Part shown: positions 2,804 to 58,509 of the stretch, in pieces
Position numbering within the stretch: the first letter of the stretch is position 1
Layout: each line of letters begins with the position of its first letter
From: Pseudoalteromonas carrageenovora IAM 12662
Lineage (GTDB): Bacteria > Pseudomonadota > Gammaproteobacteria > Enterobacterales > Alteromonadaceae
Direction: 5' to 3'
Assembly (NCBI RefSeq): GCF_900239935.1
Contig: NZ_LT965929.1
Span: 1-64,000 of the forward strand
DNA length: 64,000 nt
Made by a program: the position numbers and the translations under genes
The notes under the pieces: generated by a model
What the model was told of the DNA's origin: nothing
The model's input: only the letters and a program-made list of their open reading frames with translations
Databases searched by the model: none

Positions 2804-5800
2804 ATGTCTGCTAACTTATCAAAAAATGATTTAATGGCTATTTTTGAAGAAATAAAAAATGAGCAGGCAACTCAGTTTCCCCTGTCTGAACGCTTTATAA
2901 AAAAGCTTTTTCGCGAAAGTGTTCTTGATAAAGGCAAAGAGTATTATAAAAATGGTCAAATTAGCTGGCTTGAGCACACACCAAACTTTTCTGTTGTGGA
3001 CTCTACGGTTCAAGGCGATAACGGTTCATCGTTTAATCAACGTATTGAGATCAGTAAAGTACCAACTGGTTATTCTGTTGACACTCATTGTACATGTAAC
3101 GCAAAAACCAAATGTCGCCATTTGGCTGCCATTTTATTTAAACTTAAAATAGAACACTCTGGTGAATACGGAGAAGACTACTTTATAAATGATTGGTTTA
3201 GCGAGTTAAGTGCACTTAAAAGCAACGATAAAAAAACGCCATCGCAAGTACTTTTATTTGTTTTAGATATTGAAAATAACAAAGTATTTTTAACACCAAA
3301 AATAGCTAACGTTGAAAACAAAAAAAATTACACCCTAGGAAGAAACCTTACCGAGCAACAGCTCAATAGCTTTGTTACTCCAAACGATTTACTCGAAAGC
3401 GATTTTAGATTATTTAGTTGGATCCGCTCGCAAAATGCAGTCGTAAACATTGAGCTTAAAGGCCAATGGGGCTTTAGTGCTTTGCAGCAGTTAATCGCAA
3501 CAGAACGTTTGTTTTTTCAACGTTCTCGTGTGCCTATAAAGGCTCAAACTGGTCAAGCATTGAGTTTTAATTGGGAACAAAATAAAGACCTTTCGCAATT
3601 AGTTATCAAGCTTGAGCAAAGCCAAAATTGGGCATTGTTAAAAACTACGCCTCCTACATATATAGACTTAGACCATTTAAAAGCTGGGCGCATTCGTACT
3701 CCATTAAGTGGTGACGAAATTGCTCATCTACAAACCATGCCTGCCCTGCACGATGCTAATTTTGATCGTATTTATAAACAACTAGCGGATAATTTTGGTG
3801 TGGGTGTTATTCCGCATCCAACTAATTTACAGCCTAGTTTGCCTAAGCCTTCTAGTAATGCGGTATTAAAAATAACAATGGGTGAGCGCGGTTTATCGCT
3901 TTCATTATTATTTAAGTATAAAAATAAAAACTATTTAGCAGGCTCTGCCCCTGCTAATACAATAAATAGTGCTTTTGAAAATACAGTAACCAATGAGCTT
4001 ACTAATCTCGGTTTCGAATTTTGTAAAGGGGGTTTACAAAGTGAATTTGTATTTATAAAACAATCTCCTATTCATTTGCACTGGCTTATATTTGAAGTGT
4101 TTCCTAGTTTTAAAGAGCGAGGCTGGCAAGTAAGTGTAAGCAAAGTTAGTAGTCCTAATCCTCAATCGGAAGTTAGCTTGCATGTTCATCGCGCTGCAGG
4201 GCATCAAATGCACTGTAAAGTTTTGCTTGGTGAAGCAAAAGCGACCCCTCTTTTTACTAATACTGATCCGCTATATCAGTCATTAAATCGACAAAGTGAA
4301 TTATTTTATTACTACCCAGTAGGCCGACAATTTGGGGTTATTAATAAATCAGCAATTAACTTAATTAACGAATTTAAAGAACGTTTTGAATTTGTAAAAA
4401 CGCGAGATGAATTTAATATACCGCTATCGTACTTACCTGAACTGGTAAAGCAAACAGCTATAAATGTAGAGCTACACGACGATTCTTTAGAGCGATATTT
4501 ATTAGAGCTAAATAGCACAGACTACGCTATGCCTGTTGTTGCTTTACATGGGTTAAACGACTCCGTTACTCTTAGGGAGTATCAACAACAAGGCGTTGAT
4601 TGGCTTAGCTTTTTAAAGCGCCATCAGTTAGGTGGGATTTTAGCCGACGATATGGGGCTTGGAAAAACACTTCAGGTAATCGCTTTTTTAGCGAGCACTT
4701 TTAACCGCCCTCAAGCTGGGCCTACACTTATAGTATGCCCTACGAGCTTAGTTAGTAATTGGCAAAACGAGATCACTAAATTTGCTAAAAGTTTAAAAGT
4801 AACGACTATTTTTGGTGCTCAGCGAAATGAGCCATTACAGCACCTAGCTCAGGCGCAGTGTATACTTACAACCTATCCGCTTTTAAAGCGCGACATAGCG
4901 TACTATTCACCGCTTTATTTTGAAAATATTATACTCGATGAAGCTCAATATATTAAAAATGATACAGCGCAGGTTTCGCGTTTAGTCAAACGCTTAAATG
5001 CCGAGTTTAAATTATGTTTAAGCGGTACCCCTATTGAAAATAACTTACTTGAACTTAAGTCATTACTCGACTTTGCTATGCCGTCACTACTTGGCTCGCA
5101 GGCTCATTTTAAACAACATTTTCAAACGCCTATCGAGCGCGAAGCTGATATGGATCGTGCAGAGCAGCTAAAAGCCTTAATTATGCCTTTTATAATGCGC
5201 CGTACTAAAGCGCAAGTTGCTCAAGAGCTACCAGAAAAAACAGAGTTAACAAAAGAGTTTGAGTTTGAGCCTAAGCAAAAAGAAATGTATCAAGGCATTA
5301 CACGCTCATTGGAAGAAAAGCTTATAGACTTATTTGCAGAGCAAGGCGTGCAAAAAAGTAAGTTGGCTTTTTTAGAAGCGCTATTAAAGTTAAGACAAAT
5401 TTGTTGCCACCCAAAATTAATAGACCCAGAAACCCAAGCAGGATCAGCAAAGCTTGAGTGGCTCGCAACACATTTACCGCTTATATTAAGCCTTGGTCGT
5501 AAAATAATTATTTTTAGCCAGTTTACATCGGCACTTGATTTAATAGCTAAACGCCTTGAAGAAATACACATTAATTTTAGTATGCTAACAGGGCAAACTC
5601 GTCATCGCGATAAAGTAATAGATGAGTTTACAAGTGGTAAAACATCGGTGTTTTTAATTAGTTTAAAAGCCGGTGGCACTGGCTTAAATTTAACGCAAGC
5701 CGATACTGTTATTCATTTTGATCCGTGGTGGAACCCAGCTGTAGAAAAGCAAGCCACCGACAGGGCATATCGTATAGGCCAAACTAATCCCGTATTTGTA

Positions 5801-5950
5801 TATAAACTAATAATGAGCAATTCAATCGAGCAAAAAGTATTTAAAATGCAGCAAGATAAGCAAGCGCTTGTAGATGCTTTATTTACCGAAAAATCTATGA
5901 GTTTTACACAGTTTGATGAGCAACAAATGTTATCACTCATTAAAAATTAA
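2804..5950 (+). CDS. SWIM-domain SNF2/DEAD-like helicase
   Basis: A 1048-residue SF2 (Snf2/RapA-related) ATPase that would translocate on DNA or remodel protein-nucleic acid complexes. The N-terminal SWIM zinc finger is visible as CTC...CRH (Cys96, Cys98, Cys104, His106). The middle 450 residues are poorly conserved. The helicase core occupies roughly 590-1040: Walker A DDMGLGKT near 614, DEAQ Walker B near 711, SGTPIEN motif III, and QATDRAYRIGQ motif VI near 982. Most bacterial SWIM-SNF2 proteins are stand-alone genes with uncharacterised roles. The gene is monocistronic, preceded by the motif cluster and followed directly by the small-RNA array. It contains one copy of the TGTAAA-N5-TTTACA element at 4022-4038. 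Confidence 0.88.
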   Translation: MSANLSKNDLMAIFEEIKNEQATQFPLSERFIKKLFRESVLDKGKEYYKNGQISWLEHTPNFSVVDSTVQGDNGSSFNQRIEISKVPTGYSVDTHCTCNAKTKCRHLAAILFKLKIEHSGEYGEDYFINDWFSELSALKSNDKKTPSQVLLFVLDIENNKVFLTPKIANVENKKNYTLGRNLTEQQLNSFVTPNDLLESDFRLFSWIRSQNAVVNIELKGQWGFSALQQLIATERLFFQRSRVPIKAQTGQALSFNWEQNKDLSQLVIKLEQSQNWALLKTTPPTYIDLDHLKAGRIRTPLSGDEIAHLQTMPALHDANFDRIYKQLADNFGVGVIPHPTNLQPSLPKPSSNAVLKITMGERGLSLSLLFKYKNKNYLAGSAPANTINSAFENTVTNELTNLGFEFCKGGLQSEFVFIKQSPIHLHWLIFEVFPSFKERGWQVSVSKVSSPNPQSEVSLHVHRAAGHQMHCKVLLGEAKATPLFTNTDPLYQSLNRQSELFYYYPVGRQFGVINKSAINLINEFKERFEFVKTRDEFNIPLSYLPELVKQTAINVELHDDSLERYLLELNSTDYAMPVVALHGLNDSVTLREYQQQGVDWLSFLKRHQLGGILADDMGLGKTLQVIAFLASTFNRPQAGPTLIVCPTSLVSNWQNEITKFAKSLKVTTIFGAQRNEPLQHLAQAQCILTTYPLLKRDIAYYSPLYFENIILDEAQYIKNDTAQVSRLVKRLNAEFKLCLSGTPIENNLLELKSLLDFAMPSLLGSQAHFKQHFQTPIEREADMDRAEQLKALIMPFIMRRTKAQVAQELPEKTELTKEFEFEPKQKEMYQGITRSLEEKLIDLFAEQGVQKSKLAFLEALLKLRQICCHPKLIDPETQAGSAKLEWLATHLPLILSLGRKIIIFSQFTSALDLIAKRLEEIHINFSMLTGQTRHRDKVIDEFTSGKTSVFLISLKAGGTGLNLTQADTVIHFDPWWNPAVEKQATDRAYRIGQTNPVFVYKLIMSNSIEQKVFKMQQDKQALVDALFTEKSMSFTQFDEQQMLSLIKN
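4022..4038. repeat. TGTAAA-GGGGG-TTTACA element, copy 1
   Basis: Perfect 6-bp inverted arms around GGGGG, inside the SNF2 helicase gene, where it is read as Cys-Lys-Gly-Gly-Leu-Gln. One of eight related copies in the window. Confidence 0.6.
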
Positions 5951-5992
5951 ATTTTAATGAACTAAATTTAAAAATAAGCGTCTATTAATATG

Positions 5993-6097
5993 CTTGTTGA
6001 TTAATTGCAGTTAATACAAGTTTTCATGTTGATTCCCCCCCTATTTAGTTACTAATTTTAGTAGCCACTGAGCCAGCACTTTTTAGCTGGCTTTTTT
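5993..6097 (+). ncRNA. Predicted small RNA, array copy 1
   Basis: About 105 nt. Stem 1 pairs CTTGT with ACAAG and ATTAA with TTAAT around the loop TTGCAG. A C-run of seven follows, then stem 2 (GTTACTA with TAGTAGC, one G-U pair), then the terminator hairpin AGCCAGC/GCTGGCT with T6. The upstream block is the most altered (TGAACTAAATTTAAAAATA, TATTAA). Ends are estimated from the stem and the T-run. Confidence 0.7.
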
Positions 6098-6183
6098 ATG
6101 CCTGTAATTTTCCTTAATTATTATATTTAAAATATTTATCAGTATTTTTGAACTTAATTTAAAGTTGGGCGTCTACTATTATG

Positions 6184-6286
6184 CTTGTTGATTAATTGCA
6201 GTTAATACAAGTTTTCATGTTGATTCCCCCTATTTAGTTACTAATTTTAGTAACCACTGAGCCAGCGCCTTTTAGCTGGCTTTTTT
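6184..6286 (+). ncRNA. Predicted small RNA, array copy 2
   Basis: About 103 nt and the best-formed unit. Stem 1 is at 6184-6211. The C-run TTCCCCC is at 6224-6230. Stem 2 is a perfect 7-bp GTTACTA/TAGTAAC at 6237-6254. The terminator is at 6260-6286. The conserved upstream block 6148-6182 contains a TACTAT/TATTAT -10-like sequence, but its TTGAAC lies 20 bp before TACTAT, so an activator may be needed. Confidence 0.75.
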
Positions 6287-6373
6287 ATGCCTGTAATTTT
6301 TCTTAATTATTATATTTAAAAATATTTATTTATAGTTTTGAACTTAATTTAAAGTTGGGCGTCTACTATTACG

Positions 6374-6476
6374 CTTGTTGATTAATTGCAGTTAACACAA
6401 GCTTCATGTTGATTTCCCCCGTTTAGTTACTAAGTTTAGAAATGATTGAGCCAGCCTAGTTTAGCTGGCTTTTTTT
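6374..6476 (+). ncRNA. Predicted small RNA, array copy 3
   Basis: About 103 nt. Stem 1 has ATTAA opposite TTAAC (one A-C mismatch), between the A-U of copies 1-2 and the G-C of copy 5. The C-run is TTTCCCCC. Stem 2 carries one mismatch (TTACTA against TAGAAA). The terminator AGCCAGC/GCTGGCT has seven T. Confidence 0.7.
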
Positions 6477-6562
6477 ATACCTAAAATTTGCCTTAATTTT
6501 TATATTTAAATTTTTTACCTGCTATTTTGAACTTAATTTAAAGTCGGGCGTCTACTATTATG

Positions 6563-6664
6563 CTTGTTGATTAATTGCAGTTAACACAAGCTTCATGTTG
6601 ATTTCCCCGTTTAGTTACTAAGTTTAGTAATGATTGAGCCAGCCTAGTTTAGCTGGCTTTTTTT
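6563..6664 (+). ncRNA. Predicted small RNA, array copy 4
   Basis: About 102 nt and nearly identical to copy 3, but stem 2 is intact (TTACTA/TAGTAA). The C-run is TTTCCCC. The terminator has seven T. Its upstream block starts TTGAACTTAATTTAAAG. Confidence 0.72.
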
Positions 6665-6750
6665 ATGTCTAAAATTTTCCTTAATTTTTATATTTAAATT
6701 TTTTATCTGCTATTTTGAACTTAATTTAAAGTTGGGCGTCTACTATTATG

Positions 6751-6853
6751 CTTGTTGGTTAATTGCAGTTAACTCAAGCATCATGTTGATTACCCTGATT
6801 GGTTACTAAATTTAGTAATGATTGAGCCAGCCCATTTTGAGCTGGCTTTTTTT
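6751..6853 (+). ncRNA. Predicted small RNA, array copy 5
   Basis: About 103 nt. Stem 1 has changed on both sides, to GTTAA opposite TTAAC, which is a compensatory change relative to ATTAA/TTAAT in copies 1-2. The C-rich stretch is shortened to TTACCC. Stem 2 is TTACTA/TAGTAA and the terminator has seven T. Confidence 0.72.
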
Positions 6854-6909
6854 ATGTCTAAAGTAAATGTTTTGAATAGTTTTTTTGTTTACACGGTCTA
6901 CTGTTATAC

Positions 6910-6996
6910 CTGCTGATAAACAGCAGTAGATTATTTTTCCCTTTGATTACTTAATTATGTAATGTTGAGCCAGCTTACCTCTAGCTGGCTTTTTTT
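6910..6996 (+). ncRNA. Predicted small RNA, diverged array copy 6
   Basis: About 87 nt. The sequence of stem 1 is different (CTGCTG/CAGCAG around ATAAA) but the fold is kept. It is followed by a T-rich stretch with CCC, then stem 2 ATTAC/GTAAT, then the terminator AGCCAGC/GCTGGCT with T7. The upstream block retains TTGAAT and CGGTCTACTGTTAT. Retention of architecture despite sequence divergence argues for selection on the RNA. Confidence 0.65.
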
Positions 6997-7085
6997 ATCT
7001 AAGTTAAAGCTTTAGTTACTTCCCCTACCCCGCATCAATGTTATTGGTTATGATGGCATGTCTCTAAATTTTATAAGTTTATTTT

Positions 7086-8552
7086 ATGTTTACCCAATTA
7101 CTCACTCATATTGACTGGTTAAGTCTGGGCGCTGGCGTTACCGCAGGCGCATTGCTTTATAGTCTTGTAGCTGCGCAGCTTCGTAAAAAATTAAATCAAC
7201 AGATTAGCGAGCAGCAACAGCAACTTTCATTACTACAAAATCAGTTTGATAATAAACAGCAGCAATACAATACCTTACTAGAAGATCACGAACTGCTAGA
7301 GCATACTCATCAGGAGCAACGCGACGAAGCACAGCACTTTAAAACCCGCTTTAGCGAGCAAGAAAAACAAAGCGTTCAATACAACCATTTTTGGCGTAAA
7401 GCCGAAGGCGAATTAACTGCTCTGCGTGAGCAATTTAATCAGCGCGATGTTGAATATAATAATATGCGCACTACGCTTGAACAAAAACAGCAAAACTTTA
7501 CCGAGCAGCTCGCGCAAATAGAGCAAAGTAAAAATGTGCTTAAAAAAGAGTTTGAAAATCTCGCTAATAAAATCTTAGAAGAAAAATCGCAAAGCTTTAA
7601 AACTCTAAATCAAGAAAGCATTGAGCAACTATTAAAACCAGTACAAGGGGAGCTAAAAGGCTTTAGAGATAAAATGGAATCTATTCACGTTGAAGATTTA
7701 AAGCAACGTGCTGCCCTTAAAACTGAGCTACTGCATTTACAAGCGAAAAGCCAAGCTATTACCGAGCAAGCCGATAAGCTCAGTAATGCACTGCAAGGGC
7801 AAAAAAAGACGCAAGGTAATTGGGGCGAACTAATGCTCGAAAACGTACTCGACAGCGCAGGCCTGCGTGCAGGTACTGACTACAAACGCGAAGTATCGTT
7901 TAACACTGAAGACGGTCGACTGCGCCCCGACGTAGTGGTGTATTTACCACAGGGCCGCCACTTAGTGATTGATGCTAAAACATCGCTAAATGCTTATACC
8001 CGTTACGTTAACGCCGAAAACGAATTAGTGGCTAGCCAAGCAATTAAAGAGCATGTAAATGCCGTTACATCGCGTATTAACGAGCTTGCCAGTAAATCGT
8101 ACGATCGACTCCCTGGTATAAACTCGCCTGAAGTGGTTATTATGTTTGTCCCTATTGAGTCTGCCTTTGTAGAGGCGCTTAAATACCAAAGCGATATTTA
8201 CCAACAAGCCATCGAAAAAAATATTTTAGTTGCTACGCCAACTACTCTGCTTACAAGCCTTAATATTGTTAAACAGCTGTGGCGCTTTGAAGAGCAAACC
8301 AAATACTCTAAAGAGCTGGCGAATCGTGCAGAGCGCTTTTACAACAAGCTCAATGGCTTTTTAACGAGTATGGAAGGTGTTGGCAAACAACTAGACCGCG
8401 CAAAAGAAAGTTACGATAAAGCCTTTTCACAGCTTTACCGTGGTAAAGGTAACTTAATTAAACAAGCTTCAGAATTTAAAGAGCTAGGTGTATCGGTTCA
8501 AAAAGAGCTACCAAACGAAAGCGTAGAAAAAGCCCAATTAGAGCTGGATTAA
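7086..8552 (+). CDS. rmuC: DNA recombination protein RmuC homologue
   Basis: RmuC family protein of 488 residues, implicated in limiting recombination between inverted repeats. Residues 10-32 form one membrane-spanning helix (LGAGVTAGALLYSLVAAQL). A long Gln/Glu-rich coiled coil runs from about 35 to 230. The conserved RmuC nuclease-like domain follows (GNWGELMLENVLDSAGL near 246, then RPDVVVYLP and VIDAKTSL near 280-300). Length and order match the family. It stands alone, 90 bp after the last small-RNA terminator, and the next gene begins 43 bp downstream. Fold and family are clear; the biochemical activity is known only from the family. Confidence 0.93.
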   Translation: MFTQLLTHIDWLSLGAGVTAGALLYSLVAAQLRKKLNQQISEQQQQLSLLQNQFDNKQQQYNTLLEDHELLEHTHQEQRDEAQHFKTRFSEQEKQSVQYNHFWRKAEGELTALREQFNQRDVEYNNMRTTLEQKQQNFTEQLAQIEQSKNVLKKEFENLANKILEEKSQSFKTLNQESIEQLLKPVQGELKGFRDKMESIHVEDLKQRAALKTELLHLQAKSQAITEQADKLSNALQGQKKTQGNWGELMLENVLDSAGLRAGTDYKREVSFNTEDGRLRPDVVVYLPQGRHLVIDAKTSLNAYTRYVNAENELVASQAIKEHVNAVTSRINELASKSYDRLPGINSPEVVIMFVPIESAFVEALKYQSDIYQQAIEKNILVATPTTLLTSLNIVKQLWRFEEQTKYSKELANRAERFYNKLNGFLTSMEGVGKQLDRAKESYDKAFSQLYRGKGNLIKQASEFKELGVSVQKELPNESVEKAQLELD

Positions 8553-58077: not shown

Positions 58078-58509
58078 TTATTTATCGCTGCAAAAGTGAC
58101 GCGCTACAGACTCTAGTTTTACTTTATCGCCTGCAGTTACGGCTACACATTGCGTATTTTTATCAAGTTTTTGCTTTTGAATTACAGTAAATTCACCCTC
58201 GTTGGCAGCGTATAAATTATATTGATAGGCATCATTACCGCCTTCAAATAATGCGGTAAATAACCCTCCCACTAACCCACCAATTATTGCTCCGCCGAGC
58301 ATTTCTTCGCTGTTGCCATCTAAGTTATCGACAAAGCCGAATCCGGCGCCAGCTGCTATTCCTGTGCCTACTTCAGATGAAAGTGTTACGGGTTGCATTG
58401 ATTCTACTGATGCGTAGTAACGCTTAACTATTTGGTTTTGATTGTTTCGATCTACCCCTTGTGATGCACAGCCTGAGAGTAGTAATACCGCGATAAGATA
58501 CTTTTCCAT
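58078..58509 (-). CDS. Glycine-zipper lipoprotein
   Basis: Lipoprotein of 143 residues. Lipobox LLLSGC (lipidated Cys near 15) and a glycine-rich helix pair (GTGIAAGAGFGFV; then LGGAIIGGLVGGLFTALF) typical of SlyB/Pcp-like glycine zipper proteins. ATG at 58509 (MEKYLIAV) is chosen; the upstream frame has no lipobox. Envelope location; role unknown, possibly membrane stability. Confidence 0.82.
   Translation of the reverse strand: MEKYLIAVLLLSGCASQGVDRNNQNQIVKRYYASVESMQPVTLSSEVGTGIAAGAGFGFVDNLDGNSEEMLGGAIIGGLVGGLFTALFEGGNDAYQYNLYAANEGEFTVIQKQKLDKNTQCVAVTAGDKVKLESVARHFCSDK

Follow-up and report, generated by a model that had tools for sequence, protein, structure and literature searches.

Organization and fold of the array

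The window, meaning the whole stretch of 64,000 nucleotides analysed, holds a series of direct repeats in the interval 5951-7085, flanked by an SNF2-family helicase gene (Table 1) and by rmuC (7086-8552). The six-unit tandem array described in an earlier, sequence-only reading is real, and is made up by five units spaced 188-191 bp (start-to-start distances of 191, 190, 189 and 188 bp) and a sixth, divergent and shorter, recognized as a copy by alignment (about 6862-6998). TRF reports a period of 189, with 4.8 copies in 5958-6862 (score 1251). All six copies reside at one place, a genome-wide search finding none elsewhere in the window's own genome. The upstream gene had been called a SWIM-SNF2 helicase; the SNF2 and helicase parts of the name are borne out by Pfam, the SWIM domain is not, none being detected at E<=1e-3. 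The stop codon of this gene and the -35 box of unit 1 are 9 bp apart (5951-5963), and the terminator of unit 1 may therefore also serve the helicase mRNA, from whose 3'-UTR a further form of the unit 1 RNA might then arise.

The array starts about 6 kb from the start of an 820-kb second replicon, and two ORFs upstream of it (82-1398 and 1414-2376) look, on visual inspection, like ParA and ParB. In nine other genomes (G001, G005, G015, G034, G036, G073, G100, G101 and G105) the distance between a copy and a contig start is likewise about 6 kb.

Table 1. Coordinates of the helicase gene, of the promoters and predicted RNAs of the array, of a candidate target and of a second sRNA-like element.
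Feature	Position	Strand	Remarks
SNF2-family helicase gene, conserved upstream neighbour	2804..5950	+	Pfam SNF2-rel_dom, Helicase_C
Unit 1, sigma-E-like promoter	5959..5985	+	GAACT ... GTCTAT; sequence and conservation in 130/144 copies
Unit 1, predicted sRNA	5990..6098 (predicted limits)	+	core 6025-6039; terminator 6070-6093
Unit 2, sigma-E-like promoter	6150..6176	+	GAACTT-N15-GTCTAC; pattern site 6150-6175
Unit 2, predicted sRNA	6181..6287 (predicted limits)	+	core 6216-6230; terminator 6259-6282
Unit 3, sigma-E-like promoter	6340..6366	+	GAACTT-N15-GTCTAC; pattern site 6340-6365
Unit 3, predicted sRNA	6371..6478 (predicted limits)	+	core 6405-6419; second stem mutated; terminator 6448-6471
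Unit 4, sigma-E-like promoter	6529..6555	+	GAACTT-N15-GTCTAC; pattern site 6529-6554
Unit 4, predicted sRNA	6560..6666 (predicted limits)	+	core 6594-6608; terminator 6636-6659
Unit 5, sigma-E-like promoter	6717..6743	+	GAACTT-N15-GTCTAC; pattern site 6717-6742
Unit 5, predicted sRNA	6748..6855 (predicted limits)	+	core 6782-6796 (ACCC, not TTCCC); terminator with 9-nt loop
Unit 6, degenerate promoter	6874..6901	+	GAATAG ... GTCTAC; sequence; exception in the promoter count
Unit 6, shorter	6905..6998	+	without CATGTTG of the core; terminator 6967-6991 kept
Candidate target, small lipoprotein-like ORF	58078..58509	-	143 aa from this ATG; start region AGGGATTCAACATG
Second sRNA-like element	G000:C1:2544681-2544776 (L062 1500-1595)	+	GAACTTTTTTGAAGGTAGCCGGTCTA promoter; 5' part TTGCTACTTGTTGATTTTGG; terminator

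In units 1-5 a promoter-like block comes first, then a hairpin at the 5' end, a C-rich stretch free of pairing, another hairpin and finally a terminator, the latter a GAGCCAGC/GCTGGCTT hairpin with a run of Ts. The RNAs predicted from the units measure roughly 95-110 nt, and their folds are more stable than those of shuffled sequences (z from -2.2 to -4.6). The C-rich stretch, thought at first to be single-stranded throughout, is so in five of the six minimum-energy folds, the exception being unit 3, which folds differently and has a mutated second stem. The run of Cs is reduced to ACCC in unit 5 and to TTCCC in unit 6. Eight terminator-like sites were detected between 5700 and 7300, against a mean of 0.8 in shuffled sequences, and five of these are the terminators of units 1-4 and 6; the terminator of unit 5 is absent from the scan since its loop exceeds the limit of 8 nt. 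As already noticed, no coding potential is shared by the units, and no ORF of at least 60 aa was found between the flanking genes (5951-7085).

The six units had been taken as equivalent. The sixth is indeed a copy, but its core is missing CATGTTG, and its -35 box reads GAATAG instead of GAACTT. Both here and in the closely related G090, GTCTAC and the terminator are kept along with these changes; last copies in several other genomes retain ATGTTGATTTTCCC. Unit 6 is probably either decayed or specialised in the window's strain.

Distribution and conservation in Pseudoalteromonas

Copies were monitored by two covariance models, R1, built from the six units with the promoter not included, and R2, broader and built from 33 sequences. 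R1 matches were found in 84 of 108 Pseudoalteromonas genomes, R2 matches in 98, so that the search of the genus suggested in the sequence-only reading shows the units to be widespread; the remaining 10 of the 108 had no R2 match. According to R2, copies are one in 62 genomes and two to six in 36, with six in three genomes; of the two matches in each of G058 and G087, both among the 36, one was located, and R1 gave a single match there. Over 345 genomes of the order R2 yielded three matches, all in Pseudoalteromonas, a weak test of absence outside the genus as only 10 candidates per genome were scored.

An exact promoter-plus-core pattern, run over 84,980 species genomes, retrieved 59 stretches, 57 from Pseudoalteromonas and two from Sphingobacterium; such a pattern selects for the promoter, and thus is no test of its conservation. 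The two Sphingobacterium stretches, with neither a model match nor the helicase alongside, were taken as chance matches. The C-terminus of the helicase adjoins the RNA in 54 of the 57 Pseudoalteromonas stretches, the other three not containing it, and in 48 of the 49 loci L008-L056, and rmuC is the next gene in some loci, not in all. Single-copy forms, complete with promoter and terminator, sit at the equivalent place in distant species. Four matches lie at the locus in P. fuliginea KMM 216 (L233), a species for which gene editing has been reported (PMC12628799).

Two arrays are not contiguous: in L048 (G036) the first copy is 1.2 kb apart from the other three, and in L047 (G089) one copy lies about 5 kb past rmuC. 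A copy in L023 (2037-2147, G001) has the promoter and the 5' end, the middle being deleted (TGCTTGTTGATTCCCC joined directly), probably because the two TGTTGATT stretches within a unit recombined.

Among 33 diverse copies, 13 of 28 base pairs changed on both sides and 91.5% of the cells were paired, the latter figure leaning towards the structure, which was drawn from unit 4. Shuffles gave 6.2 such pairs, and slid partners 2-7 pairs with 31-42% of the cells paired. Pair 11-43 of helix 1 fails in 17 of 32 cases. The core TGTTGATTTCCC carries a mean information of 1.79 bits, against 1.35 over the whole unit. Most copies are not recent duplicates, since the best match lies within the own genome for only 49 of the 133 copies found in multi-copy genomes. 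Promoter, fold and terminator are all kept across the genus, and the view of the repeats as a tandem multi-copy array of predicted small RNAs is upheld. As judged from sequence comparison, the units have what is expected of a bacterial sRNA gene, namely an own promoter, a conserved fold and an intrinsic terminator, with no conserved ORF.

Promoters, pairing core and candidate targets

A promoter-like block in each unit had been noticed before; it is there, but is of the ECF/sigma-E-like and not of the sigma-70-like type. Promoters were counted in 148 of 155 model matches, corresponding to 144 distinct copies detected by R1 (left out were two matches of about 28 bits, one cut by the contig end, and four duplicates of one genome). 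GTCTAY is found directly upstream of 135 of these copies, and GAACT-N16/17-GTCTAY upstream of 130 (N16 in 124, N17 in six), the exceptions being mostly divergent last copies. In the 124 copies with spacing 16, the mid-spacer is nearly random (0.05-0.36 bits at positions -10 to -13), and the 2.00 bits of GAACT and GTCTA result from the selection of those copies. Sigma-70 promoters were searched as well, and discarded: none was found on the plus strand, and three weak sites on the minus strand compare with 6.1 expected.

The gene rpoE is preceded by GAACT-N16-GTC (26 genomes) or by the N17 variant (four) in 30 of 30 genomes of the genus. In the window's genome, GAACTT-N15-GTCAGA is found at rpoE and GAACTT-N15-GTCTAC at units 2-5, -35 box and spacing being identical. 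By their -35 box, the GTC of the -10 box and a spacing as in the promoter of rpoE itself, the putative promoters of the units resemble those of a sigma-E regulon. They depart from the sigma-E consensus published for Salmonella (GGAACTTTT / GTCAAA; PMC1804206) in two respects: in most copies T stands where GGAACTT has its first G, and the -10 box reads GTCTAY, not GTCAAA. The pattern GAACTTN{15,17}GTCTA is not over-represented genome-wide (six sites, against 13 for the reversed pattern); four of the six sites belong to the array, and a fifth precedes a second, likewise conserved sRNA-like element (see below). The -10 box of the units is unlike that of rpoE, mostly GTCAGA, and eight further ECF-like matches occur in the window's genome; recognition by another ECF factor is thus possible.

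The most conserved unpaired segment is the core UGUUGAUUUCCC, or CAUGUUGAUUUCCCC as worded in the explanation favoured here; its complement, GGGGAAATCAACATG, reads as a Shine-Dalgarno sequence and then a start codon. The window's genome encodes TonB-dependent receptors with 58 plug domains, and the core pairs better with the start regions of the 58 receptors than with those of 380 other genes (p=2.8e-5). The reversed core gave p=0.45, and none of 20 shuffles was as good as the core. Of 19 segments examined along unit 4, p<0.05 was reached only by the two on the core, and the 5' hairpin region showed no pairing enrichment with TonB receptors (p=1); the left half of the core alone was matched by two of 20 shuffles in G000. 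The result recurs, more weakly, in G007, the genome of a second species with a single, diverged sRNA copy (p=0.0052 for the core, 46 receptors vs. 291 genes, 0 of 20 shuffles as good). There the full unpaired region gave p=0.042, with three of 46 receptors below the 5th percentile of controls, and the halves of the core alone were weak (p=0.11 and 0.096). Below the same percentile, the core placed nine of 58 receptors in the window's genome and seven of 46 in G007. Between the two genomes, the pairing energies of receptors that are reciprocal best matches correlate (23 pairs, rho 0.50, p=0.016). The best-pairing receptors include GGGGAAATTTAGAATG (L106), GAGGGAAAAACAACATG (L098) and AAGGGAATCAACATCATG (L094); the plug-domain receptors of the window itself, L083 and L102, are not strong cases (-9.4 and -10.5 kcal/mol).

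Individual sites were sought by pattern. Fifteen sites match GGGGAAATCAACATG with up to two mismatches (10 in the control), and five of these are the array; one of the other 10 is a gene start, that of a TonB receptor. The pattern CATGTTGAN{0,4}CCC has 13 sites (three in the control), five again in the array, and one of the other eight was taken as a gene start. This is the candidate target of Table 1, the only gene start found in the genome with a complement to the pattern; the ORF has LLLSGC near its N-terminus, and no Pfam match.

The mRNAs of TonB-dependent receptors are likely targets. They are not established as such, because only nine of 58 receptors stand out, several non-receptor genes also pair strongly with the core, and a simple rule had served to assign the gene starts; the support for pairing at receptor start sites is of a statistical kind, the enrichment being significant in both genomes but modest. 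Part of the signal might stem from strong, G-rich Shine-Dalgarno sequences in the receptor genes. The units may form a real sRNA array that responds to a different ECF sigma factor or has other main targets (e.g. metabolic or motility mRNAs), receptor pairing reflecting G-rich ribosome-binding sites in general. This explanation, rather unlikely in our judgement, would accommodate the eight additional ECF-like matches, the non-receptor genes pairing as strongly and the weakness of the G007 replicate, but fits poorly with a -35 box and spacing identical to those of the promoter of rpoE, seen in 30 of 30 genomes, and with the weaker receptor enrichment given by composition shuffles and by the reversed core.

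The second sRNA-like element shares CTTGTTGATT with the array units, and is located between an ORF with the QSregVF_b domain (PF12843) and a convergent histidine kinase gene. Matches of 55 bases or more occur in 47 of 108 genomes of the genus (a tally of 65 includes shorter, terminator-like matches). The element is present in G003 and G008, in which array matches are absent. No pairing enrichment with TonB receptors was observed (p=0.34).

Proposed function and comparison with known systems

The array itself, its conservation, the promoter motif shared with rpoE, the fold, the terminator and the exposed core are supported at the sequence level. We regard as fairly probable that the units are sigma-E-driven, tandemly amplified sRNAs blocking the translation of outer-membrane proteins. 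Each unit would be an independent small-RNA gene with its own sigma-E-type promoter. Upon envelope stress, misfolded outer-membrane proteins would activate sigma-E (RpoE), on which transcription would depend in vivo, and several identical promoters would fire together. The core would bind mRNAs encoding outer-membrane proteins, many of which are TonB-dependent receptors, in the stretch from the Shine-Dalgarno sequence to the start codon, possibly with the use of Hfq; pairing would repress these mRNAs by blocking ribosome binding, and the envelope load would fall. Tandem copies would raise the dose. Sigma-E-like promoters and a core complementary to receptor start sites together suggest that the array probably acts as a brake, adjustable in dose, on the synthesis of outer-membrane proteins.

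Alternatively, the units may serve the helicase gene, mainly as a repeated terminator or 3'-UTR element, and any sRNA would be a by-product. No more than about 10 bp separate the helicase stop codon from the start of the first promoter, and a strong terminator closes each unit, in line with this idea; yet a terminator needs neither a promoter conserved in each copy nor an unpaired core that is better conserved than the remainder of the unit, and we hold the idea to be improbable. It is highly improbable that the copies act as sponges or give rise to read-through double transcripts, with a function unlike that of one unit, in the way of PrrF1/PrrF2 and PrrH: the tandem arrangement, the PrrH precedent (PMC4211561) and a unit 6 devoid of the core are compatible with it, but a strong terminator follows every unit, and the core is unchanged in single-copy species. 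Least probable is that the repeat works at the DNA level (as a mobile or palindromic element, or a protein-binding array) and has no function as RNA; tandem repetition and a copy number differing between species are offset by the absence of copies elsewhere in the window's genome, by covariation fitting RNA helices and by single-copy forms with promoter and terminator at the equivalent place in distant species.

Within the favoured reading of sigma-E-driven sRNAs, a more specific version is tentative, and in our view somewhat doubtful. It would have an envelope-stress brake specific to the genus, in which the units of a tandem-amplified sRNA, each driven separately by sigma-E, are antisense to a consensus receptor start site (GGGGAAAUCAACAUG), copy number setting the strength at which many TonB-dependent receptors are shut off jointly. 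Sigma-E sRNAs are familiar chiefly as products of single genes, in enteric bacteria and vibrios, Pseudoalteromonas is a widely studied marine genus, and TonB-dependent receptors are gates for nutrient uptake. If the proposal is true, a marine genus applies the logic of sigma-E sRNAs via a different RNA, in up to six separately promoted copies, and aims it at TonB-dependent receptors. Since the copies at this one place range naturally from one to six, it can be tested directly why sibling sRNAs are kept.

No description of the array was found in the literature, in agreement with the sequence-only reading, though the units may be among the hundreds of predicted sRNAs reported for P. fuliginea (PMC11882849). 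The Csr-type sRNAs Pf1-3 of this species have 25, 21 and 9 GGA motifs (same source); unit transcripts, read by eye, have none. In the window, no Rfam family scores as high as its gathering cut-off. Relaxing the E-value brought up 33 weak matches, the best being VqmR (27.2 bits vs. 76). Qrr (RF00378) scored 21.3 bits vs. 50 at unit 5; the comparison with Qrr RNAs previously drawn holds for multiplicity, and for nothing else. LhrC, MicA, RybB and OmrA/B gave no match at gathering score in the window or at E<=10 in the array, their presence in the library being unconfirmed.

VrrA (RF01456) is the best sub-threshold Rfam match of three single-copy loci (34.3, 33.2 and 31.8 bits vs. 50), the alignment covering mostly the terminator and an A/U-rich stretch; a fourth single-copy locus, L041, had no VrrA match at E<=1. 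In Vibrio, VrrA is a sigma-E-dependent sRNA that pairs with the start region of its message and thereby represses an outer-membrane protein (PMC2628432). The units would be alike in having a sigma-E-type promoter and start-region pairing, both predicted here; tandem copies of VrrA are not mentioned in the part of that source available. RybB and MicA of Salmonella and E. coli, with promoters of the type GGAACTTTT / GTCAAA, remove omp mRNAs in envelope stress (PMC1804206). They are two unrelated single genes, whereas Pseudoalteromonas has a tandem family, TonB-dependent receptors being the best-supported candidate targets. OmrA and OmrB of E. coli are tandem siblings repressing the iron receptors CirA, FecA and FepA (PMC4211561), and resemble the array in arrangement and in the candidate receptor targets; they differ from it in being two copies under EnvZ/OmpR control, and not one to six with sigma-E-like promoters. 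The Listeria LhrC1-5 RNAs are multi-copy, pair by a C-rich UCCC motif, are induced by envelope stress and block translation (PMC4132741). The likeness to LhrC pointed out earlier is apt as to multiplicity, C-rich pairing motif and envelope-stress induction, the last being predicted for the array; LhrC RNAs are controlled by the LisRK two-component system and have three CU-rich sites each, against a sigma-factor-type promoter and one site in the array. The sigma-E-type promoter, missed in the sequence-only reading, makes MicA, RybB and VrrA closer models of function. Rather than a demonstrated member of the MicA, RybB, VrrA or LhrC families, the array appears to be a sigma-E-type sRNA family amplified in tandem.
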